A stretch of 64,000 nucleotides of DNA from Isoptericola peretonis (GTDB taxonomy: Bacteria > Actinomycetota > Actinomycetes > Actinomycetales > Cellulomonadaceae), in contig JALQCY010000003.1 in NCBI GenBank assembly GCA_023241745.1, forward strand, positions 803,560 to 867,559. Reading direction: 5' to 3'. Under the pieces are notes generated by a model, which saw only the letters and a program-made list of their open reading frames with translations, ran no database searches and had not been told where the DNA came from. The position numbers and the translations under genes are program-made. Numbering within the stretch: position 1 is the stretch's first letter; each line of letters opens with the position of its first letter. Below are positions 4,613-39,323 of the stretch, piece by piece.

Positions 4613-4812
4613 ATTACGGTGCGGACCTCGCCTCGCCAGCACACGGGCTACCGGGACCTGCTCGGACCCGGCGTGGGCTGGGACGAGCTGGACCGCTTCG
4701 CGTTCTACGACGCCGCCCGGTCGGACGACGTCGCGGTGCTCGTCGCGACGGGGACCAGCGCGTGTACGCCAACCTGCTGCTCACGCTCGGGGTCCGCGTG
4801 CCGGAGGAGTAG
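4613..4812 (+). pseudogene. RbsD/FucU (L-fucose mutarotase-like) C-terminal remnant
   Basis: Read with one frame change, this stretch gives DRFAFYDAARSDDVAVLVATG and then DQRVYANLLLTLGVRVPEE before TAG at 4810-4812. This is the closing pattern of RbsD/FucU mutarotases (RFAFY, ATGE, YGN, LLxKGV). The break is at the G run 4750-4753, where one extra G would restore the frame. Only about 60 of the usual 140 residues remain, so the gene is both truncated and frameshifted. FucU interconverts fucose anomers, which is notable because a possible fucose oxidation route lies further along. Family assignment is by motif reading only. Confidence 0.55.
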
Positions 4813-25300: not shown

Positions 25301-26172
25301 GTCTTCATGAGCCCGGACATCTCGCCGTAGCGCAGCGTGATCGTGCGGGCGTCCGTGTCGATCGACTCGATCTTGTTGTACGACCACTCCCAGCTCTGGC
25401 CGAAGATGCCGTCCAGCCAGACGTCCTCGGCCTGGCCCCAGTGCTGCGGGCGGTCGTAGGAGTAGCTGAAGGTGCCGCCCCGCTCCTGCAGGTCGGCGTC
25501 GTCCTTCGTGGGCCCGGCGTCGATGATCTTGTTCATCTGGACGGTGTCTCTCGCCGCCCCGGCGTTGGGCCAGCGGGCGAGGGTCATGTCCTCGCCGTCC
25601 ACGTACAGCTCCATCGGCGGCGTCGTGCTGACGTCGTTGGCCTTCCAGTAGCCGTGCCGGCTGAGCTGCCCGTAGTCGTCGATGCCGAGCGCGCCCAGGT
25701 CGATCTCCAGGACGTCGTCGCGCGCGGAGGTCTCGATGATCCGGTCGAGCACCGCCTGGTCGGTGACGGGGGAGAAGCCGTCGTAGGGCAGCTCCTTGCC
25801 GCCCGAGATCGTCGCCGTCTCGCCCGGAAAGCTGCGGTAGGTCACGGGGGCCTCCGCGGTGCCGGAGTCCTGCTCCCCGAGGAGGAAGGACGCCGAGCGC
25901 TCGTACGTGCCCTCGCGCAGGTAGACCGTGACGGGCTTCTTCCCGCGCTGCTTGAGGTCGCGGACGGCGTCGCGCGCCCCCTCCAGCGTGCGGAGCGGGC
26001 GCTTCTTCGATCCCGTCGCGTCGTCGTCACCGCCCGGGGCGACGTAGAGGGCGACGCCCGGGGGCTGGCCCGGTCCGTGGCGCAGCGCGGTCGCCGCGCT
26101 GCTGGTGGCGCCCGCGCCGACGACGCACGTGGCGACGGCGGCGGCGAGCAGGGCTGACAGATGTCGCTTCAT
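22366..26172 (-). CDS. large secreted right-handed beta-helix enzyme (GH141-like) with Ig-like domains
   Basis: This is a 1268-residue secreted protein. Residues 1-30 are a Sec signal (MKRHLSALLAAAVATCVVGA). Residues about 40-750 form a parallel beta-helix; LYVAPGGDDDATG, LEGARDAVRDLK, VYLREGTYERSASFLLGEQD and APVTYRSFPGETATISGGKE resemble the GH141 family (alpha-L-fucosidase, xylanase). Two Ig-like BIG2-type domains follow (about 755-830 and 1035-1110), each before a concanavalin-like module. There is no LPXTG anchor or S-layer domain. A promoter with a CGATAA box controls it. An alternative is another pectin-type beta-helix lyase or esterase; the exact activity is open. Confidence 0.78.
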   Translation of the reverse strand: MKRHLSALLAAAVATCVVGAGATSSAATALRHGPGQPPGVALYVAPGGDDDATGSKKRPLRTLEGARDAVRDLKQRGKKPVTVYLREGTYERSASFLLGEQDSGTAEAPVTYRSFPGETATISGGKELPYDGFSPVTDQAVLDRIIETSARDDVLEIDLGALGIDDYGQLSRHGYWKANDVSTTPPMELYVDGEDMTLARWPNAGAARDTVQMNKIIDAGPTKDDADLQERGGTFSYSYDRPQHWGQAEDVWLDGIFGQSWEWSYNKIESIDTDARTITLRYGEMSGLMKTWYPDFHFAQNLLEELDAPGEYYIDRDTGTLYLVPNASFEAERGAPVVTTLDEPMIRTDGASYVTFDDLVLEYGRATAAVILGGSHVTISNSDIQNFTDGGVYINSPGRYTYDGIPVNRGGRDHAVVSSDIRHVGGVGVVLQGGDKTTLEPGRNRVEDSHIHDFAYYHKAYNPGVMFDGVGNVARGNEINDAPHPGIIVHGNDHLFEQNEVYDVCKTFQDLGAIYMNAGETPQQRGHVFRQNYFHDVGLTKHGVEGIYADNFTWDLEISQNVFVNMGNDAIKSGSADYIDAVNNVFVDTTVPYDNYTQWMGDGEGNTVDRVYMPTWKKVFADNNDFVGTPYLEKYPELGHFFEDNHYFPNKSTFAKNVVWNPNRTRNPDVNEQGALDTKNLLNYGDNWVTDADPGFVDAANGDYTFREDAAVFDQVPGFEAIPFGEIGTDGPVGQSQTPDTVALESLVLPADQLGVTLGDEVSVAAQAVPWNATQQAVSYTSSDPEVVTISAAGVLTAVAPGEVTISAEAKSDAGIRDEMTVTVAAGDGVLHSTDFETGANGWPTDPNRAIVDDGTGDHVYRIKNGANSQLDRQFSEYALDFTVTTPADVPEGGQLLVYDRTGSTPGGYVRYRHAAAGSTWTIFDSAWGTVKEVTLPAGEGLEPGTEYAVRVVVTAGGVRVLLDGEEVVAGANPAPEAAGKVGFYVQGFASLDVDDVAFSLVGVDPDGLTLAPSEATIEPGETHPLAPSFTPADATRTGLEWRTSDASVATVDAKGVVRGVAAGTATVTATSTVVPGLTASSTVTVRAADHPVTDLGAEILDPASWAPGEGVTVADGAAHLAPRGAWGFAPKTFGDELLRFDTSVGDFDGGWFGFSVRSKAAGDPVWTNSSSGYLVVVKEDVIEMQRWSPAVFMIDIFPNTVIGPNSTHEVTFGAVDVAGGTRVVLRVDGEPVWSYLDDTADNPLATDGYFTVYRQGPAGEMSISPAS

Positions 26173-26245
26173 TGCGAGTGCTCCGACCTCTTCGGATGGT
26201 CATGGACTGCGGGTCGACCTCGACCCGGGACTGGCAGCGTGAGCG

Positions 26246-26274
26246 ACGTTACATTAATCGATAATCGCTGACAA
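26246..26274 (-). promoter_or_regulatory. promoter with regulatory box in the spacer
   Basis: On the minus strand TTGTCA (26274-26269), a 17-base spacer and TAACGT (26251-26246) form the promoter of the beta-helix gene. The spacer contains CGATTATCGATTA, which recurs in the same place of the promoter at 39411-39439. Position within the spacer fits repressor control. Confidence 0.6.
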
Positions 26275-26334
26275 CGGTGTGCCGGGGGTCCGAACCCGCT
26301 ACGGTCGGACCGTCCGTCACTCGAAGGAGAGCTC

Positions 26335-26997
26335 ATGACCAGCAGCGCGACCCCGCACGAACGCCTCGTCTTCGTCGGGGACTCCATCACCGACGCCGGC
26401 CGCGACCGCGCCGACGCGACCTCGCTCGGCGACGGCTACGTCCGGCTCGTGGCGCGCGACCTGCCCGACGCCGTCGTCGTCAACCTCGGCATCGGCGGCG
26501 ACCGGGCCGTCGACCTCGAGCGGCGGTGGGAGCGCGACGTGGTGCCCGCCGCGCCCGACGTCCTCACCCTCTACGTGGGGGTCAACGACACCTGGCGGCG
26601 GTTCGACGCCGGCGACCCCACCGGTGCCGAGGAGTTCGAGGCCACGTACCGTCGCCTCCTCGACCGGGTCCCCGGCAGCCCTCGGCTCGTGCTCGTCGAG
26701 CCGTACCTCCTGCCGGTGCGCCCGGAGCAGGAGGCGTGGCTGACGGACCTGGACGGCAAGCGGGACGTCGTGACCAGGCTCGCCGCGGAGACCGGCGCCG
26801 CGCTAGTGCCGCTGCACGGGCTGCTGAGCCGGGCGGCCGAGGGAGTCGGGGCGGCCGCGCTCGCCCCCGACGGCGTGCACCCGGCCCCGGCGGCGTCGAG
26901 GCTCGTCGCGGACGCGTGGCTGACCGCGTACCGGCAGACGGCGTACGCTGGCGATGCACAAACGATTCTCGATAACGATGTGAGGCTGCACGGATGA
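26335..26997 (+). CDS. SGNH/GDSL-family esterase
   Basis: This 220-residue cytoplasmic hydrolase has all four SGNH blocks: VFVGDSITDAGR (Ser), LGIGGDRAVDL (Gly), LYVGVNDTWRR (Asn) and DGVHPAP (Asp/His). Relatives remove acetyl groups from carbohydrates, which fits a GH10/beta-helix neighbourhood. GAAGGAGA precedes ATG 26335. Its stop overlaps the start of the GntR regulator by four bases (ATGA), so the two are coupled. The last 15 codons contain an operator-like box and give an atypical tail. Confidence 0.9.
   Translation: MTSSATPHERLVFVGDSITDAGRDRADATSLGDGYVRLVARDLPDAVVVNLGIGGDRAVDLERRWERDVVPAAPDVLTLYVGVNDTWRRFDAGDPTGAEEFEATYRRLLDRVPGSPRLVLVEPYLLPVRPEQEAWLTDLDGKRDVVTRLAAETGAALVPLHGLLSRAAEGVGAAALAPDGVHPAPAASRLVADAWLTAYRQTAYAGDAQTILDNDVRLHG
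26965..26980. promoter_or_regulatory. CGATAA box just before the GntR gene
   Basis: ATTCTCGATAACGATG lies inside the 3' end of the esterase gene, 13 bases before the GntR start. It shares TCGATAA with the boxes at 26254 and 39415, suggesting autoregulation by the GntR protein or control by the same factor. Confidence 0.4.
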
Positions 26998-27680
26998 CGG
27001 ACGCGCTCAGCTCGATCAGCGGCCTCCAGCGCGGGCTCCTGTCCGACCAGATCTACGACCTCGTCAAGACGATGATCAAGACGTCGCAGCTGGCCCCGGG
27101 GGAGCAGCTGGTGGAGTCCCAGCTCGCCCGCCGCCTGCAGGTCAGCCAGGCGCCCGTGCGCGACGCGTTGAAGCGCCTCGCGCACGAGGGGCTGGTGACG
27201 CACGTGCGCCACCAGGGCAACTTCGTGGCGCAGTACTCCGACGAGGAGGCGCAGCAGGCCAAGCAGGCACGTGTCGCCGTCGAGGCGCTCGCCGGCCGGC
27301 TCGCGTGCGGGCGGCTCGCGTCCGAGGCGCGATCCAGCCTGGAGAAGGTCATCGACGAGATGCACGGCGCCGTCGACGCGGCGGACCTCCCCGCGTTCCG
27401 CGAGCTCGACTTCGCCTTCCACCGCGCCGTCATCGAGGCCAGCGGCAACACCTACCTGCCGCGCATGTGGGACATCATCGAGCCCAGCCTGCGGTCCATG
27501 CACCTGCTCGGCGACCCGGAGTTCACCGGCGACTGGCACCAGGTGGCCGACTGGCACCGCAGCCTCCTCGACGTCCTCGACGCCGGCGACGCCGCCGCGG
27601 CGTCCGCGCTCTTCGAGGCGCACGCGGCGGGGACGCTGCTGGACGGCGAGCCCGACGCGAAGACGGACGCCGCCGGCTGA
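26994..27680 (+). CDS. GntR-family regulator, FCD type
   Basis: This 228-residue regulator has a winged helix (LVESQLARRLQVSQAPVRDALKRL, residues about 38-62) and an FCD domain with metal-type ligands (ELDFAFHRAVIEAS; later ADWHRSLL and FEAHAAG). FCD members generally respond to sugar acids, so control of the sugar-oxidation operon at 31504-39323 and the beta-helix gene is plausible. TGAGG stands 8 bases before ATG. It converges almost head-on with the next gene (4-base gap), with no terminator visible. Confidence 0.88.
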   Translation: MTDALSSISGLQRGLLSDQIYDLVKTMIKTSQLAPGEQLVESQLARRLQVSQAPVRDALKRLAHEGLVTHVRHQGNFVAQYSDEEAQQAKQARVAVEALAGRLACGRLASEARSSLEKVIDEMHGAVDAADLPAFRELDFAFHRAVIEASGNTYLPRMWDIIEPSLRSMHLLGDPEFTGDWHQVADWHRSLLDVLDAGDAAAASALFEAHAAGTLLDGEPDAKTDAAG

Positions 27681-27684
27681 CCGG

Positions 27685-28797
27685 CTACGCCCGCCAGCCC
27701 GTGGCGGCGGCCCACGCCTCCGCCCGGGCCGTGATCTCCGCGATCAGGTCGCCCTTGGCGTCGGCGTACGCGTTCATGTCCGGCCAGTCCCGGGCGGCGA
27801 GCTCACGCTTGAGCGCGGCGTAGGCGGCGCGGTCGTCGGCGTCGTGCCGGATCCGGTCGCGGAACAGCAGGTGCCGGCGCTCCCAGTCGCTGCCCGCCGC
27901 GCAGACGTGGACGTGGACGTCGCGCTCGGGCGTGCGGACCAACCGGTGCCCGGGCTCCCTCGCCCTCAGCACGTACCCGGCGGCGAGCAGCGCGGGGAGG
28001 TAGGCCTCCTCGTCCTCGACGTCCGGCACGCTGACGTCGATGTCGACGATCGGCTTCGCCGCGAGCCCGGGCACCGCCGTCGAGCCCACGTGGTCCACCC
28101 GTAGCGCGACCGGGCCGAGTGCGGCGACGATGCGCTCGCGCTCCCGCTCGAACCGCGCCGGCCACCCGGGGTCCGGCTCGGCGATCGCGATCTCGCGCTT
28201 CTCGACGCCGCCGACCAGCTCGACCCCGGTGACCTGCCCGGCGGGCACGGGCTGCGCCTGCCACTCCGGCGCGAGCACCGACCAGATCTCGATGTCCTGG
28301 CGCACCCCGAGGTGCTCGTGGTGCTCCCGCAGCACGCCGTCGCGTCGCATCCCCAGCCGCCGCGCGACGGCGATGCTCGGCGCGTTGCCCGACGCCACCC
28401 ACCACTCGACGCGGTGGATCCCACGGTCGCGGACCGCCCAGTCGACGATGAGCCGCGCGGCCCGCGTCACCAGGCCCCGGCCCGCCGCCGCCGGCTCCAG
28501 CCAGCAGCCCGCCTCCGCCGTGCCCTGGGCCACGTCCATCGTGCGGAACAGCACGCCGCCCACCAGGGTGCGGTCGAGCCAGATCCCGTAGAGCCGCCCG
28601 GTGTCGGTCGCGGCCTTCTGGGCGTACGCGGCGAGGAACGACCGGCTCGACTCCACGTCCGTGATCCGGTCGGGGAGGGGGACGAACCGCCCGATGAAAT
28701 CCCGGCCCCGGTCGATGGTCGCGAGCAGCTCCTCCGCGTGCCGTGGCTCCAGCGGGCGCAGCTCGGCGCCGTCGTCGCCGAGGGACCTCGCGAACAT
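27685..28797 (-). CDS. GNAT acetyltransferase fused to GrpB domain
   Basis: This 370-residue protein has two complete domains. Residues 1-185 are a RimJ/RimL-type GNAT N-acetyltransferase (LRPLEPRHAEELLATID, GRGLVTRAARLIVDWAV as acetyl-CoA loop, ARRLGMRRDGVLREH). Residues about 200-370 are a GrpB/UPF0157 nucleotidyltransferase-fold domain with VDHVGSTAVPGLAAKPIVDI and HVCAAGSDWERRHLLFRD. The halves usually occur as separate proteins. The linker around residue 190 is short and has no frameshift signature. Substrate unknown; a role in modifying small amines or antibiotics is only possible. Confidence 0.85.
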   Translation of the reverse strand: MFARSLGDDGAELRPLEPRHAEELLATIDRGRDFIGRFVPLPDRITDVESSRSFLAAYAQKAATDTGRLYGIWLDRTLVGGVLFRTMDVAQGTAEAGCWLEPAAAGRGLVTRAARLIVDWAVRDRGIHRVEWWVASGNAPSIAVARRLGMRRDGVLREHHEHLGVRQDIEIWSVLAPEWQAQPVPAGQVTGVELVGGVEKREIAIAEPDPGWPARFERERERIVAALGPVALRVDHVGSTAVPGLAAKPIVDIDVSVPDVEDEEAYLPALLAAGYVLRAREPGHRLVRTPERDVHVHVCAAGSDWERRHLLFRDRIRHDADDRAAYAALKRELAARDWPDMNAYADAKGDLIAEITARAEAWAAATGWRA

Positions 28798-28830
28798 CGT
28801 TCCTCCAGGGTCGGTCTTCGGTGCAGGTGG

Positions 28831-29030
28831 TCAGTAGCCGCGCTCGCCGTCGGCGAGCTCACGCAGGAGATCCAGATGGCCGAGGTGGCGGGCGGTCTCG
28901 TGCAGGAGGTGGCCCAGGATCCACCGCAGCGAGACGCGCGGCAGGCCCGGTGGCGAGAATCGCTCGAGCGTATCCAGGTCGTGGCTTGCCGCGATGCCCC
29001 GCGTCGTCGCAATCGTCAGGCTGCGGTGCG
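28831..29030 (-). pseudogene. DinB-like (DUF664) C-terminal remnant
   Basis: The minus strand gives [20 protein letters not shown] followed by [14 protein letters not shown] and a stop at 28833-28831, the standard ending of DUF664/DinB-like thiol-related proteins. Homology starts only around [12 protein letters not shown]; the N-terminal 100 or so residues with the first metal-binding His are missing, and a kinase gene follows instead. It probably is a truncated gene. Confidence 0.55.
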
Positions 29031-29064
29031 GGGAACCGGCGTCCGGGAGCGTCCACGGGTGCAC

Positions 29065-29679
29065 TCAAGCAGGCGCGGGGCCCGGTGTCGACGGCTCCGG
29101 AGCCGCCGGCGCGGAGGCGAGGTCGAAAGCGGCAAGGATGGTCTCCGCAATCTCAGCCGGGCTGCGGGCAGACGTGTCGACCGTGAGGTCGAACGGCTCG
29201 CCGTCGGCGATGTCGAGGTGCCCGCGCGCGTTGCCGAGATGCCGGCCGTGCGTCCGATAGGCCTCGCGCTCCTCGACCACGGCGAGGGGTGCCACGAGTC
29301 GCACCCACCAGGTTCGGTAGCCGGAGAGTCCTTGCCTCCAGGCGGGCAGGATCGTCCGATCGACAGGCATCTCGTCCAGGACGATGTCGTTCCCCGTGTC
29401 GAGCAGGGCACGGACCGCGGCGCGTTGCCCGTCCAGGAGACGTCGTCCAGCGTCGCCATAGCGGATCTGCGCTCGTGGTCGACCGTCGGTGTCCACGGTG
29501 TCCTCGTACCAGAATCCCGAGCCGCCAGGGTTTCCCGTCCAGCGGCTCGGGAACATCGAGAAGAAGTGGTCGAGCCCGACCGCGAGGTGGGGGCCGGCGA
29601 GCCGTCCCTGCAGCTCACCGGCCACCGACGACTTTCCGACGCTGGACGTACCGACGAGGGCGATGAGATGGCCGGGCAT
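29065..29679 (-). CDS. chloramphenicol phosphotransferase-like P-loop kinase
   Basis: This 204-residue protein resembles the CPT family. The Walker A is LVGTSSVGKSSVAGEL near residue 8; GLDHFFSMFP contains the Asp that acts in Streptomyces CPT; WYEDTVD and VLDEMPVDRTI follow. The C terminus is a Pro/Ala tail. Many CPT-like proteins are unrelated to drug resistance, so chloramphenicol modification is not claimed. Base composition is a little less GC-rich than around it. It starts close to a divergent PP2C gene. Confidence 0.8.
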   Translation of the reverse strand: MPGHLIALVGTSSVGKSSVAGELQGRLAGPHLAVGLDHFFSMFPSRWTGNPGGSGFWYEDTVDTDGRPRAQIRYGDAGRRLLDGQRAAVRALLDTGNDIVLDEMPVDRTILPAWRQGLSGYRTWWVRLVAPLAVVEEREAYRTHGRHLGNARGHLDIADGEPFDLTVDTSARSPAEIAETILAAFDLASAPAAPEPSTPGPAPA

Positions 29680-29796
29680 GATCTCGAGTGTCGTGACGGG
29701 TGATCAGCGAGACAAGGGGAGGAAAACGGCACCCGGACGCGAGTCTCACCCCGCGCCGGCCGCGGCGTGCCGGCGTGTTCTCGTTAGCATTTGCGT

Positions 29797-31557
29797 GTGG
29801 ATCCGGAGTGGTTCGAGGCGGCGACGGCCGGCAGCGCGGTGGGCCGCGAAGCCCGCGCGGTCGACTGGGAGCGCACGCCTCTCGGTCCGCCGAGCGGATG
29901 GCCGGTCGCGCTGCGGCACGCCGTGCGGCTGTGCTACTCCACCCACTTTCCCGTGATGATGGTCTGGGGCCCGGACCTCACGCTGATCTACAACGACGGC
30001 TACCGCGGCATGCTCGGCACCGACAAGCACCCGGCCGCGCTCGGGGCGCCGGCCACGGTGGTGTGGGACGAGATCTGGGACGAGATCGGCCCCCTCTTCG
30101 AGCGGGTCCTCACCACCGGCGAGCCGACGTGGAGCCGCGACCTCCCGCTGCTGATGAACCGCTCCGGGTACACCGAGGAGACGTACTTCACCTTCTCCTA
30201 CAGCCCGCTCCTGGACGACGACGGCCGGGTCGCGGGCGTCCTGGACATCGCGACCGAGACCACCCAGGAGGTCGTGAACCAGCGCAGGCTGAGCACCGTG
30301 GGCCAGGTGCACGCCGTGCTGCCCACGACGTACGAGGACGTGCCGACGTTCGTCGGGCCGGCGCTCGAGGTGATGTCCCGCAGCGCCGACATCTCGCGGG
30401 TGGCCGTCTACGACGCCGAGGGCGGGGAGGTCCTCCTGGAGACGGGGCAGCCCCCCGAAGAGGCCGAGCAGGCCCTCGTCGAGCGGGCGCTCGCCACGGG
30501 CCTGCGCGTGACGTCCCGCGGCGTCGTGGTGAAGCCGGTGCGATCGGGCCTGGGCCGCGGCATCCTCGCCGTCCTGGTGCTGCGCGCCACCTCGCTGCGA
30601 CCGTGGGACGCGGACTACGCCCGCTTCCTGGCCGTCCTGGCGACCAACGTCGCGGCGGCGCTGCGCGACGGCGTGCGCCGCCGGGCGAACGACGACGCGC
30701 TGCGGCTCCGGGCCCGCCGGTCCGAGGAGGAGCGGGCCCGGGCCACCGAGGTGTCGCTCGCCCTGCAGCGCGCCGTGCTCAGCAACCCGCCGCAGCTCGA
30801 CGGGCTCGAGGTCGTCGTCCACTACCAGCCGGCCGCCGCCGGACGCGACATCGGCGGCGACTGGTACGACGCGTTCGTGACGCGGGACGGGGCGACGACG
30901 CTCGTGATCGGCGACGTCGTGGGTCACGACCTGGACGCTGCCGTCGCCATGGGCCAGCTCCGGGCGCTGGTGCGCGCGATCGGCTACGACAGCCAGGAGA
31001 CGCCGGCGCGCGTGCTGGAGCGGGTCGACGCGGCCATCGACGGGCTGGCGTTCGGCGGGGCGGCGACGGCGACCGTGCTCGTGGCCCGCATCGAGCAGAC
31101 CGAGGAGCAGCGCCGTCGCGGCGTCCGCACCGTGCGGTGGTCCAGCGCCGGCCACCTGCCCCCGGTGCTGGCGCGTGCCGACGGCACCAGCGAGGTGCTC
31201 TGGATCCACAACGACCTGGTTCTCGGGCTCGCCCCGACGACCTCGAGGACGGACCACACCGTCGACCTGCGCGACGGCGACACCCTCGTGCTGTACACGG
31301 ACGGCCTGGTCGAGAACCGCACCGACTCCCTGCGCCGGCGCGTGGAGGCGCTGGCCGCGATGCTCGACGGGACCCACGGCGCCGCGATGGGCGACGTGGT
31401 CTCGGACGTCCTGGCCGGCATGCTTCCCGGGGCGGTCGAGGACGACGTCGCGATCGTCGCGGTGCGGGTCAGGCCCGAGGCCGCCGCCCGGGCCGGGGCT
31501 TCGTCAGTGGGCGTCGCCGTAGAGGCGGGCGGCGGTGCCCGACCAGACGGCGGCTGA
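29797..31557 (+). CDS. PAS-GAF-SpoIIE (PP2C-type) serine phosphatase
   Basis: This 586-residue signalling phosphatase has a PAS-like sensor (residues about 30-150; WGPDLTLIYNDGYRGMLG), a GAF-like region (about 155-295), a helical linker, and a SpoIIE/PP2C catalytic domain (about 335-570). Metal-binding Asp residues are in GRDIGGDWYDAF, VIGDVVGHDLDAA, VLYTDGLVENR and EDDVAIVAV. Members dephosphorylate anti-sigma-factor antagonists in stress pathways. GTG 29797 is preferred over TTG 29791. Its last 54 bases overlap the 3' end of the opposing lactonase gene. Confidence 0.9.
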   Translation: MDPEWFEAATAGSAVGREARAVDWERTPLGPPSGWPVALRHAVRLCYSTHFPVMMVWGPDLTLIYNDGYRGMLGTDKHPAALGAPATVVWDEIWDEIGPLFERVLTTGEPTWSRDLPLLMNRSGYTEETYFTFSYSPLLDDDGRVAGVLDIATETTQEVVNQRRLSTVGQVHAVLPTTYEDVPTFVGPALEVMSRSADISRVAVYDAEGGEVLLETGQPPEEAEQALVERALATGLRVTSRGVVVKPVRSGLGRGILAVLVLRATSLRPWDADYARFLAVLATNVAAALRDGVRRRANDDALRLRARRSEEERARATEVSLALQRAVLSNPPQLDGLEVVVHYQPAAAGRDIGGDWYDAFVTRDGATTLVIGDVVGHDLDAAVAMGQLRALVRAIGYDSQETPARVLERVDAAIDGLAFGGAATATVLVARIEQTEEQRRRGVRTVRWSSAGHLPPVLARADGTSEVLWIHNDLVLGLAPTTSRTDHTVDLRDGDTLVLYTDGLVENRTDSLRRRVEALAAMLDGTHGAAMGDVVSDVLAGMLPGAVEDDVAIVAVRVRPEAAARAGASSVGVAVEAGGGARPDGG

Positions 31558-32424
31558 GCCCTCGTCGCTCAGCGGGGGGAGCGCGCGGGCGGTCCGCTCG
31601 AGGATCCCGGCGTACGGCGCGACGCGTGCCGACATGGGCCAGTCGCTGCCGAACAGCAGGCGTCCCGGCCCCAGCAGCTCGACGGCAGAGCGTGCGGCCG
31701 CGGCGACACGCGCGGCGTCGTCGCTCGTCGTGGCGGCGCTGGCGGCCCGGTGCAGGCCGGACAGCTTGGCGTGCACGCGGGGGCGGGCGGCGGTCGCGGC
31801 GAGGCCGTCACGCCACGGCGCGTCCGGCTCGCCTGTGCCGAGACCCAGGTGACAGACGACGACGTCGAGGCGCGGGTGCCGGCCGGCGAGCGCGGCGACG
31901 GCCGGCAGCTGGGCCGGGCGCACCAGCGTCTCGAGCACCCGGCCCGACGCGGCCAGGCCCTCGCAGAGCGCGTCGAGGCCGGCGACGTCCGACAGGTCCG
32001 CCGCGCCGCCCGGGACGGCGAGCCGGACGCCCCTCACCCGGGCGCCCGCCGCGTCGTCCTCGAGCACTCGTCGCGCCATGCCGGACCATGCGCCGGGCTC
32101 GCCGGGGCGGGCGTCGTACTGGAGCACGACCGGGCCGGGCAGCGGCCCGTGCGTCGTGGCCTGTCGGACGAGCCAGCGCGCCTCGGCCTCGGTGTCCGCG
32201 GCCTGCACGGCGACCGCCGCACGCACCAGGACCGGCGAGGTCGCGACGGCGCTCGCCAGGTCCTCGGGGCCGACGCGCGACGGCAGGCCGAGGTCGTCGC
32301 GGAACCACGAGATCCGCATCGCGCCCGTGTCCCACAGGTGCACGTGGGCGTCCACGACCCCGCCCATCACCCCGCCCACCACCCTGCCCACCACCCCGCC
32401 CACCACCCCGCCCACCAGGTTCAC
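31504..32424 (-). CDS. amidohydrolase-2 lactonase, probable L-fucono-lactonase
   Basis: This COG3618-type TIM-barrel hydrolase has VVDAHVHLWDTG, VVCHLGLGTG, HAKLSGLHR and LFGSDWPMS, the metal and catalytic blocks of sugar lactonases such as L-fuconolactonase. GTG 32424 overlaps the upstream stop as GTGA, giving 306 residues, but the first 20 are encoded by a 12-bp tandem repeat (VGGV units); ATG 32367, directly before VVDAHVHL, is the more conserved start. It is last in the seven-gene operon and should hydrolyse the lactone made by the aldo/keto reductase. Confidence 0.85.
   Translation of the reverse strand: MNLVGGVVGGVVGRVVGGVMGGVVDAHVHLWDTGAMRISWFRDDLGLPSRVGPEDLASAVATSPVLVRAAVAVQAADTEAEARWLVRQATTHGPLPGPVVLQYDARPGEPGAWSGMARRVLEDDAAGARVRGVRLAVPGGAADLSDVAGLDALCEGLAASGRVLETLVRPAQLPAVAALAGRHPRLDVVVCHLGLGTGEPDAPWRDGLAATAARPRVHAKLSGLHRAASAATTSDDAARVAAAARSAVELLGPGRLLFGSDWPMSARVAPYAGILERTARALPPLSDEGSAAVWSGTAARLYGDAH
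32357..32416. repeat. five tandem copies of a 12-bp unit at a gene start
   Basis: ACCCCGCCCACC is repeated five times (two copies differ at one base). On the minus strand it encodes V-G-G-V units between the coupled GTG start and the conserved ATG of the lactonase gene. Unit length is a multiple of three, so copy number changes would keep the frame. Confidence 0.85.
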
Positions 32425-33410
32425 GCACCGGGCCGGGCGATCGCGTCGAGCGTCGCCCACAGGTGGTCGGGGACGGCGGCGTCCGAGGCGTCGGCGAAGA
32501 CGTCCACCTCGGCGGGGGTGCGCGCGCCCACGACGACGGCCTCGACGCCCGGCACCCGCAGCGGCCAGCGGGCCGCGGCCGCCGCCAGCGTGACCCCGGC
32601 CGCGTCGCAGGCGGCCGCCATGCGCAGCGCACGGTCCACCTGCTCCGGCGACGCCGGGTGGTAGTCGAAGAACGGGGCGGCCACCGGGTCGGCGAGCACC
32701 CCGGAGTTGTAGACGCCGGCGGCGATCACGCCCACGCCGCGCTCGCGGGCGGCCGGCAGCAGGTCGTCCAGCGCCGAGCGGTCCAGCAGGGTCACCCGGC
32801 CCGCGGGCATGACGACGTCCAGCGCGCCGGCGCTCTCGCGCACGAGCCGGGCGACGGGCGCGTTCCGCCCCATCCCGACGCCGACGGCCCGCACGACCCC
32901 CTGGTCACGCAGCTCCAGCAGGGCGGGGACGGCCCCGCGCAGCGCCTCGTCGACGTCCGCGGGGTCGTGCAGGTAGAGCAGGTCCACGCGGTCGGTGCCC
33001 AGCCGGGCGAGGCTGCCCTCGAGCGACCGCAGCACGCCGTCGCGGCTGAGGTCGCCGACGGTCGTGCCGCCGGGACCCCCGGTGCCGCCCGTGGGCACGG
33101 GCGCGCCGTCGGCGTCCACGATCACCCGCCCCACCTTGGTGGCGATCGCCACCGAGTCCCGGTCCACGCCGGCGAGCGCGCGACCGAGCCGCAGCTCGCT
33201 GACGCCCTCGCCGTAGTGGGGCGCGGTGTCGAAGAACCGGAGGCCGCGCTCGAGCGCGTGCCCGACCGTCGCCTCGGCGTCGCCGTCCGCGACCGGCGTG
33301 AACAGGTTGCCGATGGGCGCGCAGCCGAGGCCGGACGACGAGGTCGCCGCGGTGGCGGCCGAGCCGCCGGAACCCGGCCTCAGCGGGCGGAGCGCTGCCC
33401 GGAACGCCAT
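32421..33410 (-). CDS. aldo/keto reductase, probable L-fucose (aldose) 1-dehydrogenase
   Basis: This 329-residue AKR has the tetrad visible as FFDTAPHYGEG (Asp, Tyr), AIATKVGR (Lys) and LLYLHDP (His). It resembles the D-threo-aldose/L-fucose 1-dehydrogenase branch, which oxidises fucose or D-arabinose to the lactone; neighbouring lactonase and RraA genes support this. ATG 33410 overlaps the upstream aldolase-like gene by 31 bases; the N terminus (about 25 Ala/Ser/Gly-rich residues) is longer than usual. Cofactor preference is not readable. Confidence 0.82.
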   Translation of the reverse strand: MAFRAALRPLRPGSGGSAATAATSSSGLGCAPIGNLFTPVADGDAEATVGHALERGLRFFDTAPHYGEGVSELRLGRALAGVDRDSVAIATKVGRVIVDADGAPVPTGGTGGPGGTTVGDLSRDGVLRSLEGSLARLGTDRVDLLYLHDPADVDEALRGAVPALLELRDQGVVRAVGVGMGRNAPVARLVRESAGALDVVMPAGRVTLLDRSALDDLLPAARERGVGVIAAGVYNSGVLADPVAAPFFDYHPASPEQVDRALRMAAACDAAGVTLAAAAARWPLRVPGVEAVVVGARTPAEVDVFADASDAAVPDHLWATLDAIARPGA

Positions 33411-34231
33411 GCCTCGAACTCCCCTCGCGTGTCGGGGGTCAGTGGGTAGTAGTCGCTCAGGCGGGCGCCCTCGTCGAGCCGGAGGCGGCTGAACACCTCC
33501 CACTCCTCGTGGTCCTGCGCGGACGCGACCACCTGGTCGGCCATCGCGCGCGGCACGACGACGGGGCCGTCGTCGTCCGCGACGACGAGGTCCCCCGGCA
33601 TGCAGAGCACGCCGCCGACGGCGACGGGCACGTCGTAGGCCCACGGGAACAGCTCCGACTGCGAGGCGTAGTGCGGCGTGACGCCCGTGGACCACACGGG
33701 AAGGCCGAGGTCGCGGATCTTGCCCGAGTCGCGGATGCGGCCGTCGACGACCATGCCGGCTCCGCCCTTGCGCTGGAAGTAGCGGGCGAGGATGTCGCCG
33801 ACGCACCCGGAGAACCGGCTGCCGTACGCCTGGATCACGAGCACGTCGCCGGGCCGCGCCGCCTCGAGCACGTGCCACAGGGCGGTGTGCCGCTCCACGT
33901 ACTCCTGCTCGTCGCCCGCGGCCAGGTCCTCGCGCTGCGGCATGAACTGCAGCGTGAGCGCGGAGCCCACCACGCGGTAGCCCGGCTTCAGCGGCCGGGG
34001 CCCCTCGACGAACGAGTGCCGGATGCCGAGGCCGTGCAGCTTGGCGCACGCGGTCGCCGACGACACCTGACCGAGCCGCTCCAGCGTCTCGGCGTCGGCC
34101 CGCTCGTACTCCCCGCCCCGCACCGGCAGCGTGATCTCGGGGCGCACCAGCCCGGCCGTCGGGTCGAGCCGGACGTCGGGGTCGGCGGCGGGCAGGCCGT
34201 CCAGACCGGGGGTGGTCAGGAAGTCGGTCAT
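33380..34231 (-). CDS. RraA/HMG-aldolase-family protein
   Basis: This 283-residue protein of the RraA fold carries GMVVDGRIRDSGKIRDLG with the family Arg-Asp pair and AYGSRFSGCVGDILARYF for the active-site loop. Family members are class II pyruvate aldolases (4-hydroxy-4-methyl-2-oxoglutarate type) or RNase E regulators; in a sugar-acid operon the aldolase role is more likely. It would then split a 2-keto-3-deoxy sugar acid such as that produced by the fuconate dehydratase. ATGA overlap with the upstream gene. N-terminal extension of about 50 residues relative to short RraA proteins. Confidence 0.8.
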   Translation of the reverse strand: MTDFLTTPGLDGLPAADPDVRLDPTAGLVRPEITLPVRGGEYERADAETLERLGQVSSATACAKLHGLGIRHSFVEGPRPLKPGYRVVGSALTLQFMPQREDLAAGDEQEYVERHTALWHVLEAARPGDVLVIQAYGSRFSGCVGDILARYFQRKGGAGMVVDGRIRDSGKIRDLGLPVWSTGVTPHYASQSELFPWAYDVPVAVGGVLCMPGDLVVADDDGPVVVPRAMADQVVASAQDHEEWEVFSRLRLDEGARLSDYYPLTPDTRGEFEAWRSGQRSAR

Positions 34232-36201
34232 GGTCGGGCTCCTTCGTGGTGCGGGTGGCGCTGGTGGCCCGGCTGATGGCGAGGCAGGGCGTCGGACGGC
34301 GCGGTGAGCAGGACGACGTCGGCGCGGTGGCTCGGCGGCAGCTCGACGAGCAGGTCGGGCGCGTCCAGGGGGACGGTGGCCGTGGCGAGGGAGCCGGCGA
34401 CTCCGGCCGAGGCGGTCGACGGGCCGGGCCAGACGCCGCCGTCCTCCCCGCGCGTCACGACGCCCACCAGGCGCTCCTCGCCGAACCGCGACGGCCGCAC
34501 GCGCAGGCGCCGGGTGCGGGTGGGGGACAGGTTGACGAGGCTGAGCTCGACGCGGCCGGTGCCGTCGGCGCCTCGGTCCAGGCCGGAGACCAGGGCCGCG
34601 ACGTCCGGCGGCAGGCCCGGGCGGTGCCGGTCGGCGTCGGTGTAGGCGACGGCGGCGAACGGCAGGCCGCCGTTGTAGAGCGTCTGCGGCGTGCCCGTGA
34701 CCAGCTGCCCCAGCACCTCCGTGACGACCGGGTTGGCCCGCTGCCAGAAGTGCAGGTGCACGGTGCCCGGCTCCACGGGCTCGGCGTCCATCACCGCGAC
34801 GCGGCGGGCGAGCTGCCCGAGCGCCATGGACAGGGCGCGCTCCGGGTACTCCGGCAGCGCGCCGTCGAGGAACGCGAGCCACGGACCCTCGTGCCCCGCC
34901 TCGACCTTGTCGCGGAACGGCCGCACCTCCCGCGAGCCGGGGAGGCCGTCGAGCACCCGGTCCAGGCGCTTGCGGTCGGCGTCGTCGCGCGTCCACCACC
35001 ACAGCCAGGTGGGCAGGTCGAGCTGCAGCGGGCCGAAGTCGAACCAGCCCTCCGCGCCGAACCGGTAGGGCACCAGCGTGGCCGGCTCGGCGGCGTGCGG
35101 CCCGAGGCGCTCCAGCCAGCTGCCGCGCAGGCTGAACGGCGTCTCGGTGACGGGCGCGGTGATCGCGTGGTCCAGCGCCGTGTCGAGCATCGTGCGCACG
35201 AGGTCGAGCGGCCCGTCGTCGCGCCTCCCCGGACCGGATACTGCTCCCGAGACGAACGACGCGTTGATCGCGCCGATCAGGGTGCTCATCCCCACCGAGT
35301 GCAGGCCGTGCGGCCAGGTCCAGCCGTAGTGCCCGCCGTACCAGGCGCCGTCGTGCAGGCCGCCGACCGTGCCGTCGGGCGCGACGTTGTCGGGCATGAG
35401 CCCGCCGGCCGCTGCGGCGCGCTCGCGCCAGCCGTCGACGTACCGCGCCACCCAGGCGGCCGACGCCGCGTCGTTGTCGTACAGCCAGCGGTTGGTGACG
35501 AGCGACGTCGCGGCGAGGTTGACCGCCGTGTCGCCGGCCGCCCGGCGCTGCAGCTCGTCGCCCATGAGCCGCGCGTGGGCCGGGTCCTCGAGGTCCGACC
35601 AGCGCGTGATGCCGGGCAGCCCGTGCAGCGGCAGCCCGTAGGCCTCCATGTAGTCCAGCGACGCGGGATAGGTGAGCCACTCCGTGCCCAGCCCGGGCAG
35701 CGGGCCGCGGGCCCCGTTGTGCGGCGCGGTGATCAGGTTGCGCGCGGGGTCGTAGTTGCCGTGCTCCGGGTCGGTGTACAGGGCGGCGAACCGGCGGGCG
35801 CGGTCGGCGAACCGCTCGTCGTCCGGGTCGGCCGCGCACAGGCCGTAGAAGAGCAGCAGCGACTCGCCCTGGTGGAACCAGTCGTACCCGTTCTCGTACT
35901 CGCCGGTGAGCATGCCGGCCTCGGTGAGCTGCGCCGTCACGCCCTCGAAGTGGTGCTTCGCGGCGTAGAGCACGTCGTCGCTGCCGCCCAGGGCGTAGAA
36001 CGCGGGCCAGTTGAAGAACGGCTCGTACAGGTCGTCCACGCCGTCGCGGTGCTCGAAGCCGCCCGCGTGCAGGATGCGGCCGTCGGGCCCGGTGTAGCGC
36101 GCCGAGAACAGGCGCCAGGCCTCCTCGGTGGCGTCGAACAGGCGTCGCTCGAGCACGGCCCAGGCGGGGACCTCGTGCAGGGGAGTCGTGGGGATACGCA
36201 T
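34228..36201 (-). CDS. unknown protein, likely (alpha/alpha)6-barrel glycoside-active enzyme
   Basis: This 657-residue protein has no signal peptide and belongs to no family I can name. Helix-rich blocks rich in Trp, Tyr and acidic residues recur: EPFFNWPAFYALGGSDD, GYDWFHQGESLLLFYGL, TEWLTYPASLDYMEAYG, GAWYGGHYGWTWPHGLHS. This looks like an alpha-toroid carbohydrate enzyme, and the last 150 residues look like beta-structure. It sits between the importer permeases and the sugar-oxidation enzymes, so it may cleave the imported glycoside. Starts at ATG 36201, five bases after the permease stop on that strand. Confidence 0.7.
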   Translation of the reverse strand: MRIPTTPLHEVPAWAVLERRLFDATEEAWRLFSARYTGPDGRILHAGGFEHRDGVDDLYEPFFNWPAFYALGGSDDVLYAAKHHFEGVTAQLTEAGMLTGEYENGYDWFHQGESLLLFYGLCAADPDDERFADRARRFAALYTDPEHGNYDPARNLITAPHNGARGPLPGLGTEWLTYPASLDYMEAYGLPLHGLPGITRWSDLEDPAHARLMGDELQRRAAGDTAVNLAATSLVTNRWLYDNDAASAAWVARYVDGWRERAAAAGGLMPDNVAPDGTVGGLHDGAWYGGHYGWTWPHGLHSVGMSTLIGAINASFVSGAVSGPGRRDDGPLDLVRTMLDTALDHAITAPVTETPFSLRGSWLERLGPHAAEPATLVPYRFGAEGWFDFGPLQLDLPTWLWWWTRDDADRKRLDRVLDGLPGSREVRPFRDKVEAGHEGPWLAFLDGALPEYPERALSMALGQLARRVAVMDAEPVEPGTVHLHFWQRANPVVTEVLGQLVTGTPQTLYNGGLPFAAVAYTDADRHRPGLPPDVAALVSGLDRGADGTGRVELSLVNLSPTRTRRLRVRPSRFGEERLVGVVTRGEDGGVWPGPSTASAGVAGSLATATVPLDAPDLLVELPPSHRADVVLLTAPSDALPRHQPGHQRHPHHEGARP

Positions 36202-36205
36202 GCCC

Positions 36206-37135
36206 TCAGCCCTTCGTCGCCCCGGCGACCAGGCCGCCGATGATGTGCCGCTGCATGAGGACGAAGAACAGGATCGCCGGGCTCACGGCGAGCAGCAGCG
36301 TCGGGAACACGGTGGTGTAGTCGGTGGAGAACTCGCCGACCGCCGCGTACACGCCTGTCGTCACGGTGTAGATGCCCGAGCTCGGGCCCAGGATGATCTG
36401 CGGGCTGACGAAGTCGTTCCACACGCTGATCGAGTTGAGCACCACGATCGTCGCGACCACCGGCCTCATGATCGGGAAGATGCACGACCAGAACGCCCGG
36501 ATCTTGCCCGCGCCGTCCAGGGCGGCGGCCTCGTCGATGTCGCGCGGCACGGTGCGCAGGTAGGCGGCGAACAGGAAGATCGTCACGGGCAGCGTGGCCG
36601 CCGTCTCGAACAGGATGAAGCCGGGGACGGTGTTGATGAGGCCCAGCACCCGCAGCACGAAGACGACCGGGATGAGCGTCACCTGCCCGGGGATGAACAG
36701 GCCGGAGACGAACAGCAGCAGCAGGCCCAGGTGCCACTTCGAGCGACCGCGCGCGATGACGTACGCGACGGGCGCGGCCAGCGCGATGCCGCACACGTTG
36801 ACCAGCGCCACGAAGAGCAGCGTGACGCCGTAGGCGCGCACCACGTTGAACTTCTCGCTGGTGAGCGCCGCCTGCAGGTGCTCCAGGCTGAACGTGTCCG
36901 GGCCGATCGCCAGCGGCGAGGAGATGATCGCGTCCTGCGGCTTGAAGGCGTTGATCACCATGATGTAGAGCGGCACCAGCATGACCAGCGCGCCGAGGCC
37001 CAGCACCACCCACTTGAGGATCGTGCCCACGCCCGGGACGGGGCGTCGTCGTCGGGTGCGGGAGGTCGGGGACGCGGTCGCCGCCGGAGCCGTCGGCCCC
37101 GTCAGGGGCGGGGTGGGGTGCGTCGTCGTCGCCAT
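36206..37135 (-). CDS. ABC sugar importer permease, MalG/LacG type
   Basis: This 309-residue permease has six helices after a Pro/Thr/Arg-rich N terminus. The EAA loop reads VPRDIDEAAALDGAGKIRAF, and NSISVWNDFVSPQIIL is the standard late motif. Its ATG overlaps the stop of the preceding permease by one base (TGATG). Part of the operon that starts with the binding protein at 39323. No ATPase gene is in the operon. Confidence 0.92.
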   Translation of the reverse strand: MATTTHPTPPLTGPTAPAATASPTSRTRRRRPVPGVGTILKWVVLGLGALVMLVPLYIMVINAFKPQDAIISSPLAIGPDTFSLEHLQAALTSEKFNVVRAYGVTLLFVALVNVCGIALAAPVAYVIARGRSKWHLGLLLLFVSGLFIPGQVTLIPVVFVLRVLGLINTVPGFILFETAATLPVTIFLFAAYLRTVPRDIDEAAALDGAGKIRAFWSCIFPIMRPVVATIVVLNSISVWNDFVSPQIILGPSSGIYTVTTGVYAAVGEFSTDYTTVFPTLLLAVSPAILFFVLMQRHIIGGLVAGATKG

Positions 37136-38058
37136 CAGTCGGCCACCTTCTTCTCCGCGCCGCGACGGGCGAGCGTGACCGCGAGGCCCAGCACGGCCGT
37201 GACGAGCAGCAGGATCACGGACTGCGCCGCGCCGAACCCGAGCTCGGAGTTCGCGAACGAGTCCCGCAGCACCTGGTACACGATCGTCTGCGTGGACCCG
37301 GCGGGGCCGCCGTCGGTGAGGGCCAGCACGATGTCGTACACCTTGAGCAGCCCCACCAGCGTGAGCACGAGGTTCACCGTGAACACGGGGGCGATGAGCG
37401 GCAGCGTCACGTTGCGGAACTGCTGCCACTTCGAGGCGCCGTCCACGGTGGCGGCCTCGTAGTACTCGGGGGGCACCGACTTGATGCCCGCGAGGAACAG
37501 GATCATGTTGAAGCCGAAGTGCGACCACACGATCGTGAGGATCACGCTCGCCTTCGCGAACGTGACCTCGGTGAGGAACGGCACGGGGGCGACGCCGAGC
37601 GTGCCCAGCAGGCCGTTGACGGCGCCCTCGGGCGCCAGCATCGCCGACCACAGGAACCCGATGATCAGGGCGCTGATGATGTACGGGTAGAAGAAGATCG
37701 TGCGCAGCAGCGTGTTCGCGCGGCCGTTGCCGGCGATGAGCGCGGCGATGAACAGCCCCACGCCGTTGCACAGGATCGTGCCCGTGAACGCCACGACGGC
37801 GGTGAAGACCGCCGCGTCCACGGTGCGCGGGTTGCGGAACGCCTCCGCGTAGTTCTCGAGCCCGATGAACGTGAAGTTCAGGCTGTAGCCGTTCCAGTCG
37901 GTCAGGCTCAGCACGAACGCCAGGAACATCGGCACGATGAACATCGCCAGGAACACGAGGACGGCGGGGCCGCCCATGACGATGCCGGGCAGTCGGTCGC
38001 GCCACACGCGCGCCGCCGGACGGCGGCGCGCGCGGACGGGGGAGAGGGTGGCAGCCAT
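37135..38058 (-). CDS. ABC sugar importer permease, MalF/LacF type
   Basis: This 307-residue permease has six helices, starting with GIVMGGPAVLVFLAMFIVPM. The EAA loop is VPPEYYEAATVDGASKWQQF; GGPAGSTQTIVYQVLRDSF precedes the last helix, as in typical sugar permeases. The start at ATG 38058 is two bases after the binding-protein stop, so the genes are co-translated. Confidence 0.92.
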   Translation of the reverse strand: MAATLSPVRARRRPAARVWRDRLPGIVMGGPAVLVFLAMFIVPMFLAFVLSLTDWNGYSLNFTFIGLENYAEAFRNPRTVDAAVFTAVVAFTGTILCNGVGLFIAALIAGNGRANTLLRTIFFYPYIISALIIGFLWSAMLAPEGAVNGLLGTLGVAPVPFLTEVTFAKASVILTIVWSHFGFNMILFLAGIKSVPPEYYEAATVDGASKWQQFRNVTLPLIAPVFTVNLVLTLVGLLKVYDIVLALTDGGPAGSTQTIVYQVLRDSFANSELGFGAAQSVILLLVTAVLGLAVTLARRGAEKKVAD

Positions 38059-38060
38059 CG

Positions 38061-39323
38061 TCAGCCCGCGGTGGAGGCGAACCAGTCGTCCATCGCGGCG
38101 ACGACCTCGTCGGCGGCCGTGCCGCCGATGAGCGCCTGGGTCTGCGCGTTGATCTCGTCGGAGTAGCCCGTCGGCAGGGTGCGCTCGCCGTAGCCCTGAC
38201 CGGTCGGGGTGTACGACTCGGCGGGCGTGTCCGCCACGATCTGCTGCAGCTCCTGGCCGAGGGCGTCCATCTCGTACTCGTAGCCGTCGCGGAAGTTGCC
38301 GTCGACCTCGAGCTGGTCGGCCACCGCCGCCTGGTCGGTCACGAGGAACTCGACGAGCTGGGCCGCCGCCTCCTGGCTCTCGCTCGACCGGAGGATCGAG
38401 TACGGGCTCGCGATGTTCGCGCCCATCGCCGGGTCGTCGACGCCCGCGACGGCCGGGGCGCGGAAGACGCCGATCTCTGCCTTCTCCTCGGCCTTCGCCT
38501 CGGTGCCCGCGAACCAGCTGCCCATCGGGTAGATCGCGCTCTTGCCGGACAGGAAGGCCTGCTCGGCGTCGGGGTACTTGACGCCCAGCGCGTCCTTGGG
38601 GATGTAGCCGTCGGCCACCCAGCCGGCGTAGGTGGCGACGGCGTCGCCGTAGGTGTCGGAGAACGTGGCCTCGCCGGCGCTCATGTGCGCGAACCACTCC
38701 GGGTCCTCGGCGACGATCGACGGCAGCCCGAGCGCCTGCAGGGAGTGGCTGGTGGCCCAGTCGCCGCTGGTCTGGATCGGGGTCCACCCGGCGTCCTTGA
38801 GCTTGCCGAGCGCGGCGGTCAGCTCGTCCACCGTGGTCGGCACGGCGGTGATGCCGGCCTCCTCGAACGCCGTCTTGTTGTAGAACCACAGGCTCTGCAG
38901 CTGGAAGCCGATGCCGGCCATGTAGTACTTGCCGTCGATGGAGTACTGGTCGGCCAGCGGCCCGGACCTCGCCCAGTCGTACTGGGAGAGGTCGACCAGC
39001 TCGGGCGCGAGGTCGGTGGTCGGGGGCAGCGACTGCACGACGTCCGGCGCGTCGCCGGCCGTGAGGAGCCGGGGGAGGGCGGCGGCCACGCCCTCGGCGC
39101 CCGGGTTCTGGACGACGACGTCGATCTCCGGGTGGGCGTCCTCGAACGGCTTGACCAGCCCGTTCCAGAACTCCTCGGTGAGGTTGGGCGTGACGTTCAC
39201 GAGCATGCTCACCTCGGTGGTGCCGCCGTCCGTGCCGCCGTCGTCGGAGCCGGCGCAGCCAGTGAGCGCGAGCGCGGCCACCGTGAGGGTGCCCACGCTC
39301 GCCAGGGTGCGGTGCTTGATCAT
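38061..39323 (-). CDS. sugar-binding lipoprotein of ABC importer
   Basis: This 420-residue family-1 solute-binding protein has a signal peptide ending in the lipobox LALTGCAGSDDGG. SLWFYNKTAFEEAGI and SAIYPMGSWFAGTEA are classical for this family. GAGAGGATC precedes ATG 39323. First gene of a seven-gene operon ending with the lactonase; the ligand is probably a mono- or oligosaccharide that yields fucose or a related aldose. The promoter upstream carries a CGATAA box. Confidence 0.93.
   Translation of the reverse strand: MIKHRTLASVGTLTVAALALTGCAGSDDGGTDGGTTEVSMLVNVTPNLTEEFWNGLVKPFEDAHPEIDVVVQNPGAEGVAAALPRLLTAGDAPDVVQSLPPTTDLAPELVDLSQYDWARSGPLADQYSIDGKYYMAGIGFQLQSLWFYNKTAFEEAGITAVPTTVDELTAALGKLKDAGWTPIQTSGDWATSHSLQALGLPSIVAEDPEWFAHMSAGEATFSDTYGDAVATYAGWVADGYIPKDALGVKYPDAEQAFLSGKSAIYPMGSWFAGTEAKAEEKAEIGVFRAPAVAGVDDPAMGANIASPYSILRSSESQEAAAQLVEFLVTDQAAVADQLEVDGNFRDGYEYEMDALGQELQQIVADTPAESYTPTGQGYGERTLPTGYSDEINAQTQALIGGTAADEVVAAMDDWFASTAG

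Follow-up and report, generated by a model that had tools for sequence, protein, structure and literature searches.

The DNA analysed here is a stretch of 64,000 nucleotides (the window) from Isoptericola peretonis, located on contig JALQCY010000003.1 (called C14 in the following, with the window start at C14:803560). It contains a minus-strand operon at 31504–39323 in which an RraA-type protein is encoded among genes for sugar uptake and oxidation. The operon is composed of seven genes: the solute-binding protein SBP of an ATP-binding cassette (ABC) transporter (38061–39323; PF01547, SBP_bac_1, 1.6e-28), the permeases P1 (37135–38058; PF00528, BPD_transp_1, 2.8e-22) and P2 (36206–37135; PF00528, 6.2e-14), a 657-amino-acid protein without Pfam match called HB here (34228–36201), RraA (33380–34231; PF03737, RraA-like, 2.2e-33), an aldo/keto reductase (AKR, 32421–33410; PF00248, Aldo_ket_red, 2.8e-41) and a COG3618-type amidohydrolase (31504–32424; PF04909, Amidohydro_2, 1.5e-31). 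SBP and P1 are separated by 2 nt, P1 and P2 overlap by 1 nt, P2 and HB are 4 nt apart, and HB and RraA as well as AKR and COG3618 overlap by 4 nt each; the overlap between RraA and AKR amounts to 31 nt if AKR starts with the ATG at 33410, but its start may be situated downstream. The tight packing described in an earlier note on this DNA is thus confirmed: all genes are present, their junctions range from gaps of up to 4 nt to an overlap of 31 nt, and the operon is a real, conserved gene set.

The AKR is a putative 1-dehydrogenase of the L-fucose/L-galactose/D-arabinose type, with L-galactose dehydrogenases as closest relatives in the Protein Data Bank (PDB) (2.4e-37). The COG3618 protein is a putative sugar lactonase (best PDB relative 4DLF, 3.3e-15) which reaches 109.7 bits with the L-fucono-1,5-lactonase equivalog NF052480, below the cut-off of 400. 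Its N-terminus is uncertain: the gene opens at 32350–32424 with a GGCGGGGTGGTG-type repeat, rich in V and G codons, ahead of the conserved VDAHVHLWD, and the true start sits probably further downstream.

Route III, the non-phosphorylating L-fucose pathway, comprises a dehydrogenase, a lactonase, L-fuconate dehydratase (FucD), a 2-keto-3-deoxy-fuconate (KDF) 4-dehydrogenase and a hydrolase of the FAH family. The genome has all of these steps and the mutarotase. FucD lies in the window (11893–13215, minus strand), as the earlier note had it, and matches the characterised L-fuconate dehydratase 1YEY over its full length (residues 3–441; 601.5 bits, 7.2e-180). The other genes are located in a cluster at C14:785980–791615, whose end lies on this contig about 12 kb ahead of the window. 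The stretch around its FAH gene (L092) shows the order GH29, COG3618, SDR (short-chain dehydrogenase/reductase), AKR, FAH, FucU, ROK regulator, binding protein, two permeases and GH29, with the transporter genes assigned by eye; GH stands for glycoside hydrolase family. The KDF-dehydrogenase-type SDR (C14:788395–789165) and the FAH hydrolase (C14:790273–791160) are found 12–15 kb before the window, and a search for FAH in the whole genome gave seven places, one of them at C14:790507–791115, about 12 kb before the window. Since the FAH of this canonical cluster (230.1 bits with the diketo-deoxy-rhamnonate hydrolase model, cut-off 500) and its COG3618 protein (210.1 bits with NF052480) both score below equivalog cut-offs, their names rest on family and clustering.

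The earlier note had correctly stated that KDF dehydrogenase and FAH are missing from the window: in tblastn the SDR of the canonical cluster gave no window match at E ≤ 1, and its FAH gave a single 27-residue match (E 0.28) outside the operon. Both genes, however, are situated just outside the window, where the genome search suggested in that note finds them, so that the finding can turn on sequence just beyond the window. The operon resembles Route III in supplying a second AKR and a second COG3618 protein and in genes that at times share a locus with RraA. It differs in that it encodes neither a dehydratase nor SDR and FAH, and it adds HB and RraA, which are foreign to Route III. A FucU-like remnant noticed before near 4613 could be traced as well: the fragment 4639–4797 aligns over 160 columns, at 96.9% identity, with the 3' portion of an intact fucU at L092:6442–6601, about 16.6 kb upstream of the fragment. 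It looks like the scar of a duplication or rearrangement involving the fucose cluster and the genes with which the window begins.

For the distribution of the operon, named genomes were scanned for RraA; of 175 confirmed loci the best 80 were kept, and all of these come from actinobacterial genera. Counts were made by tblastn, with thresholds of at least 55% identity for the KDF-dehydrogenase-type SDR and at least 45% for FAH; gene calls in related loci were based on codon-position G+C scoring, by which some genes were missed. RraA is accompanied by HB in 77 of the 80 loci, by an AKR in 58 and by a COG3618 protein in 48. Relatives of SBP, P1 and P2 occur in 72, 73 and 75 loci, respectively (E ≤ 1e-15; other ABC genes may be included). 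Because 13 of the loci are shorter than 16 kb, absences there may be due to contig ends. The three loci without HB are L005 (8.9 kb with 300 N), L070 (contig begins at rraA) and L066, where a 76-residue piece of HB still matches at 8.5e-12. The SDR was found in seven loci and FAH in four, both together with RraA in L045, L048, L065 and L066. In L066, from Microbacterium sp. AK009, an enolase-superfamily gene overlaps rraA by 11 nt according to the script call, and the locus also holds AKR, GH29, FAH, SDR and COG3618.

At the level of genomes, 296 members of the class were compared, that of I. peretonis included. HB is present in 16 of them and an RraAS2-type RraA (at least 55% identity) in nine, all within the 16; a further 19 genomes with an RraA match have only relatives at 32–41% identity. 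In four genomes (G154, G174, G192, G235) RraA and HB lie in one cluster region, about 10 kb apart. FucD, SDR and FAH occur at the thresholds used in 76, 96 and 119 genomes and all three together in 72, among them all 16 HB genomes and all nine RraA genomes; in the latter the SDR is at least 65% and FAH at least 56% identical. G248, the only other genome of the same genus shown, has neither HB, FucD, RraA, SDR nor FAH at these thresholds. The nesting of RraA within HB within the complete pathway points to an accessory module, and RraA is an add-on and no replacement, since every RraA genome also has HB, FucD, SDR and FAH.

The RraA of the window belongs to the superfamily of RraA-like proteins and class II pyruvate aldolases (PF03737, 116.1 bits, cut-off 24.5) and exceeds the cut-off of PRK08245 (265.2 bits, cut-off 208). 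It stays below the RNase E regulator equivalogs NF006875 and TIGR02998 (59.5/136 and 27.3/241.25 bits) and below TIGR02798, the model of the CHA/HMG aldolase LigK/PcmE (104.3/304.5 bits). The pattern D-X20-R-D, which we take to be the exact form of the metal/pyruvate motif, begins at residue 146 and is conserved in 81 of 81 RraA sequences; it is also present in the HMG/CHA aldolase 3NOJ. Among RraA homologues, most have one of two motifs for metal binding and catalysis and are likely to be class II pyruvate aldolases, according to PMC5065237, which also places the HMG/CHA aldolase in this class. The HMG/CHA aldolase is homologous to the window protein (4.6e-25) but acts in an aromatic and not in a sugar pathway.

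The closest relative of known structure is 5X15 (7.1e-116; 67.7% identity in a 251-residue alignment), presumably RraAS2 of Streptomyces coelicolor. In Streptomyces sp. MH60 (L058), RraA shares 97.6% identity with the 5X15 chain (254 residues aligned) and is encoded in the order GntR / SBP-P1-P2-HB-RraA-AKR-SDR-COG3618. As a protein so nearly identical sits in this operon type, the RraAS2-type proteins are proposed to be 2-keto-3-deoxy sugar-acid aldolases. RraAS2 and the window protein share about 68% identity over 251 amino acids, but RraAS2 has been published as an inhibitor of RNase ES, whereas the window protein is read as a catabolic enzyme. A literature search found no paper linking RraA with mandelate racemase, none of relevance among the papers listed for RraA with fucose, and for sco7163 only a review.

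A similar context is seen in homologues outside this operon type. In a plasmid collection 199 records with an RraA relative were found, and 15 regions, picked for variety and not at random, were read around them. A sugar-acid dehydratase is present in 12 of these: enolase-superfamily members in seven (L139, L140, L141, L146, L148, L149, L150), mannonate dehydratase in two (L147, L156), L-arabinonate dehydratase directly upstream of the RraA homologue in two (L151, L157) and uxuA about 7 kb away in one (L153). These dehydratases are of three kinds and belong to unrelated families. All nine regions whose RraA homologue is at least 42% identical have one, while none was seen in L152, L154 and L155. 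L155 is an annotated Rhodococcus homoprotocatechuate (hpa) cluster with a FAH-RraA fusion. Such a fusion of 486 amino acids also occurs in I. peretonis at C14:762915–764375 (L090:12916–14376), by eye in an hpa-type aromatic cluster, and clusters of this type, too, seem to employ RraA domains for keto-acid chemistry.

HB clusters, in turn, can carry RraA or, without it, a 2-keto-3-deoxy-gluconate (KDG)-type kinase with Eda or a gene of the DHDPS family. The operon L131 is composed of an SBP-like gene (by eye), P1, P2, HB, a RhaM-type mutarotase (49.5 bits, cut-off 99.6), COG3618, a zinc alcohol dehydrogenase, a KduD-like SDR (336.7, cut-off 338.85), Eda (229.9, cut-off 156.05), a KDG-kinase-type gene (147.1, cut-off 440), AKR and a beta-helix protein. 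HB is accompanied by FucD and AKR in L119, by FucD and SDR in L121, by SDR in L122 and by AKR and COG3618 in L123. Homologues of HB with 33–38% identity, annotated as 'hypothetical protein', exist on haloarchaeal plasmids, of which ten regions were read (L134–L136, L138, L142–L145, L158, L159). Genes annotated as pectate lyase, GH28 or GH4 are found in seven of them and uronate or sugar-acid genes in the others; enolase-superfamily or mannonate dehydratases occur in five and DHDPS-family genes within 9 kb of HB in four. A tblastn search of L134–L138 (five loci, one of them proteobacterial) gave no RraA or beta-helix relative. It is mainly this pattern of displacement in HB clusters, together with the dehydratase neighbours, for which RraA is called a putative 2-keto-3-deoxy sugar-acid aldolase. 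Two further HB loci deviate in content. L123 (G209) has, next to AKR and COG3618, two sulfatase-like genes (by eye), which suggests a version for sulfated fucose-bearing glycans, and in L120 (G286) HB has a 2-hydroxyacid dehydrogenase and a glycerate kinase as flanking genes, an arrangement that would suit the handling of glycerate derived from a six-carbon sugar whose 6-OH is free.

HB itself is predicted to fold into an (alpha/alpha) barrel with a C-terminal beta-sandwich. No Pfam or NCBIfam match was obtained at E ≤ 0.001, phmmer gave nothing usable, the HB profile had no match among PDB sequences at E ≤ 10, and Foldseek found none at E ≤ 0.001 with the whole model or with the barrel alone. 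By sequence profiles HB is not a member of GH88, GH76, GH47 or the AGE-type epimerases; no sequence-level relation to these families was found, and HB has a beta-sandwich of its own. Structure comparison lists (alpha/alpha)-barrel families at 5–12% identity among the matches shown, and as several of them tie, no choice is made among hydrolase, lyase and epimerase. HB, which is tied to fucose and pectin-type gene sets, is proposed to be an intracellular glycan-processing enzyme of a new family.

Taken together, the operon may be an accessory module for carbohydrate uptake and processing which feeds the complete non-phosphorylating L-fucose pathway, with RraA as an aldolase branch; we regard the chances for and against this explanation as evenly balanced. 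We infer the reactions, the location in the cell, the order of steps and the substrate as follows. The ABC transporter would import an oligosaccharide derived from a pectin-like heteroglycan with fucose or L-galactose, probably prepared outside the cell by a beta-helix protein and an esterase encoded nearby, and HB would process it inside the cell. A fucose-type sugar set free in this way, with the configuration of L-fucose, L-galactose or D-arabinose, would be oxidised to the aldonate by AKR and the COG3618 protein, and a dehydratase, most simply FucD, would yield the 2-keto-3-deoxy acid. This acid might then be split by RraA, as a metal-dependent pyruvate-type aldolase, into pyruvate and a short aldehyde, beside the branch formed by SDR and FAH.

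Several points weigh against this explanation. A dehydratase is rarely encoded within the operon, because FucD was found in one of the 80 loci and another enolase-superfamily gene in three, two of them remote with about 24% identity (queries were FucD and three other enolase-superfamily proteins). The dehydratase that would feed RraA could be one of several, as the genome has five enolase-superfamily C-terminal domains above cut-off. Where SDR or FAH accompany RraA, a second exit from KDF would be redundant. In the HB genomes G175, G278 and G286, SDR and FAH are only 46–56% identical, and the match to FAH in G209 extends over 170 residues, so orthology is unsure in these four. The co-occurrence is improbable in an unstructured draw (p = 4e-11 for 16 of 16 in the 72, p = 3e-13 for nine of nine in the 16), but this calculation ignores relatedness. 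Of the plasmid regions, chosen for variety, five of the nine with a closer homologue represent one Rhizobium operon type, and a DHDPS-family gene adjoins HB only in L159 and is elsewhere 6–8 kb away. Finally, RraAS2 (sco7163) inhibits RNase ES in vitro and in Escherichia coli, according to a review (PMC10126417).

This inhibition and the close relative 5X15 are what speaks for the view that RraA is an RNase E/ES inhibitor which happens to sit in a sugar operon. The aldolase motif in all 81 sequences, scores under the cut-offs of both RNase-regulator models and the confinement of RraAS2-type RraA to HB genomes (nine of nine in the sample) and to genomes with FucD, SDR and FAH make a mere regulator very unlikely; RraA is most likely a sugar-acid-splitting enzyme. 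As such it could, as the earlier note suggested, open an alternative fucose route in which it stands in for KDF dehydrogenase and FAH as the sole exit of L-fucose oxidation, for the operon has AKR, COG3618 and RraA without SDR or FAH. In other bacteria KDF is known to be split by an aldolase as an alternative (PMC11199699): route 1 (FucH) of anaerobic bacteria shares the type of cleavage proposed here, but the aldolase takes the place of SDR and FAH. In I. peretonis, however, SDR and FAH lie beside AKR, COG3618, FucU and GH29 upstream of the window, all nine RraA genomes keep FucD, SDR and FAH, and four of the 80 loci hold RraA with both. Replacement is thus refuted by gene content and can hardly be given any chance. 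FucH is presumably a member of the DHDPS family and unrelated to RraA. The suggestion that RraA cleaves KDF stands in part: motif, dehydratase neighbours and the other aldolases in HB clusters support the class of aldolase chemistry, but the substrate need not be KDF.

Two further readings keep RraA as an enzyme. It could be a dehydratase/decarboxylase of a 2-keto-3-deoxy acid like FlDet of Flavobacterium, an RraA-family protein 26% identical to an S. coelicolor RNase E inhibitor and described as converting KDGR, which comes from sugar breakdown, toward alpha-ketoglutaric semialdehyde (PMC8563752); in Route II, KDP dehydratases work at this branch point as well (PMC6336799). This reading is unlikely: KDGR is a dicarboxylic acid, and other HB clusters carry Eda or DHDPS-family genes, even though DHDPS relatives include dehydratases. 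FlDet performs no aldol cleavage. RraA might also cleave a preformed 3-deoxy-2-ketosugar such as Kdo (3-deoxy-D-manno-octulosonate), with the released D-arabinose passing through AKR, COG3618, FucD, SDR and FAH to pyruvate and glycolate. This would explain why SDR (seven of 80) and FAH (four of 80) share the RraA locus and why the nine RraA genomes keep FucD, SDR and FAH; pectin-type glycosidases (GH95, GH106, GH141-like) nearby in some loci are in line with it, and Route III handles pentoses with the same type of dehydrogenase and hydrolase (PMC6336799). Yet seven of the 16 HB genomes lack an RraAS2-type RraA and keep the pathway, which suggests that a fucose-type sugar is supplied by HB on its own, and RraA homologues elsewhere stand near dehydratases, which Kdo would not need. 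No Kdo-specific gene turned up, although no search was aimed at one. We consider this route distinctly unlikely. A literature search for 3-deoxy-D-manno-octulosonate aldolase gave no paper.

The sugar handled by the proposed accessory module may be L-galactose, L-fucose, D-arabinose (from Kdo) or a uronate-linked unit. An AKR of COG0667 oxidises D-arabinose, L-fucose and L-galactose (PMC6336799). The L-galactose dehydrogenases among the relatives of the operon AKR do not separate these sugars, because the canonical-cluster AKR shares 48% identity with it. Some RraA loci encode GH95, GH106, GH39, GH29 and GH141-like glycosidases, a set known in part from rhamnogalacturonan II breakdown. A first guess, held weakly, is L-galactose via 2-keto-3-deoxy-L-galactonate. 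L131 was considered as a case of L-galactose catabolism via tagaturonate (compare PMC12632266) and rejected: its SDR resembles KduD, with a score slightly short of the cut-off, and no dehydratase was recognised in the stretch, for which reasons L131 was not used to fix the substrate.

In a wider sense the RraAS2-type 'RNase inhibitors' may be metal-dependent 2-keto-3-deoxy sugar-acid aldolases that work beside varied dehydratases and in Actinobacteria are bound to HB, which would be the founder of a new family of (alpha/alpha)-barrel glycan enzymes shared with haloarchaea; through the module, the fucose pathway would also take in rare sugars of plant walls (L-galactose, or Kdo as a source of D-arabinose). 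We hold this tentatively, at somewhat less than an even chance. If true, many genes named 'ribonuclease activity regulator RraA' in sugar operons would move from RNA regulation to sugar-acid catabolism, including a protein of solved structure taken to control RNA turnover in Streptomyces, and HB would represent a new family of carbohydrate-active proteins whose invariant acidic residues are shared by bacteria and archaea.

The putative partners of the operon are encoded at 22366–27680. A large beta-helix protein (22366–26172, minus strand) with Beta_helix and Ig-like domains, distantly GH141-like, is a putative extracellular partner (9RX2, 2.2e-22; BT_1002, 3.4e-4); it has relatives in 31 of the 80 loci, and 61 loci encode some beta-helix protein. 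It is followed on the plus strand by a GDSL/SGNH esterase (26335–26997; PF13472, 8.9e-25), a kept neighbour of the operon in 26 loci, and by a GntR/FCD protein (26994–27680; PF00392 and PF07729; 66 loci), the probable operon regulator. Genes without obvious link at 27685–31557, including a SpoIIE/PAS-type protein (29791–31557), separate this block from the operon; in many related loci the two are adjacent.

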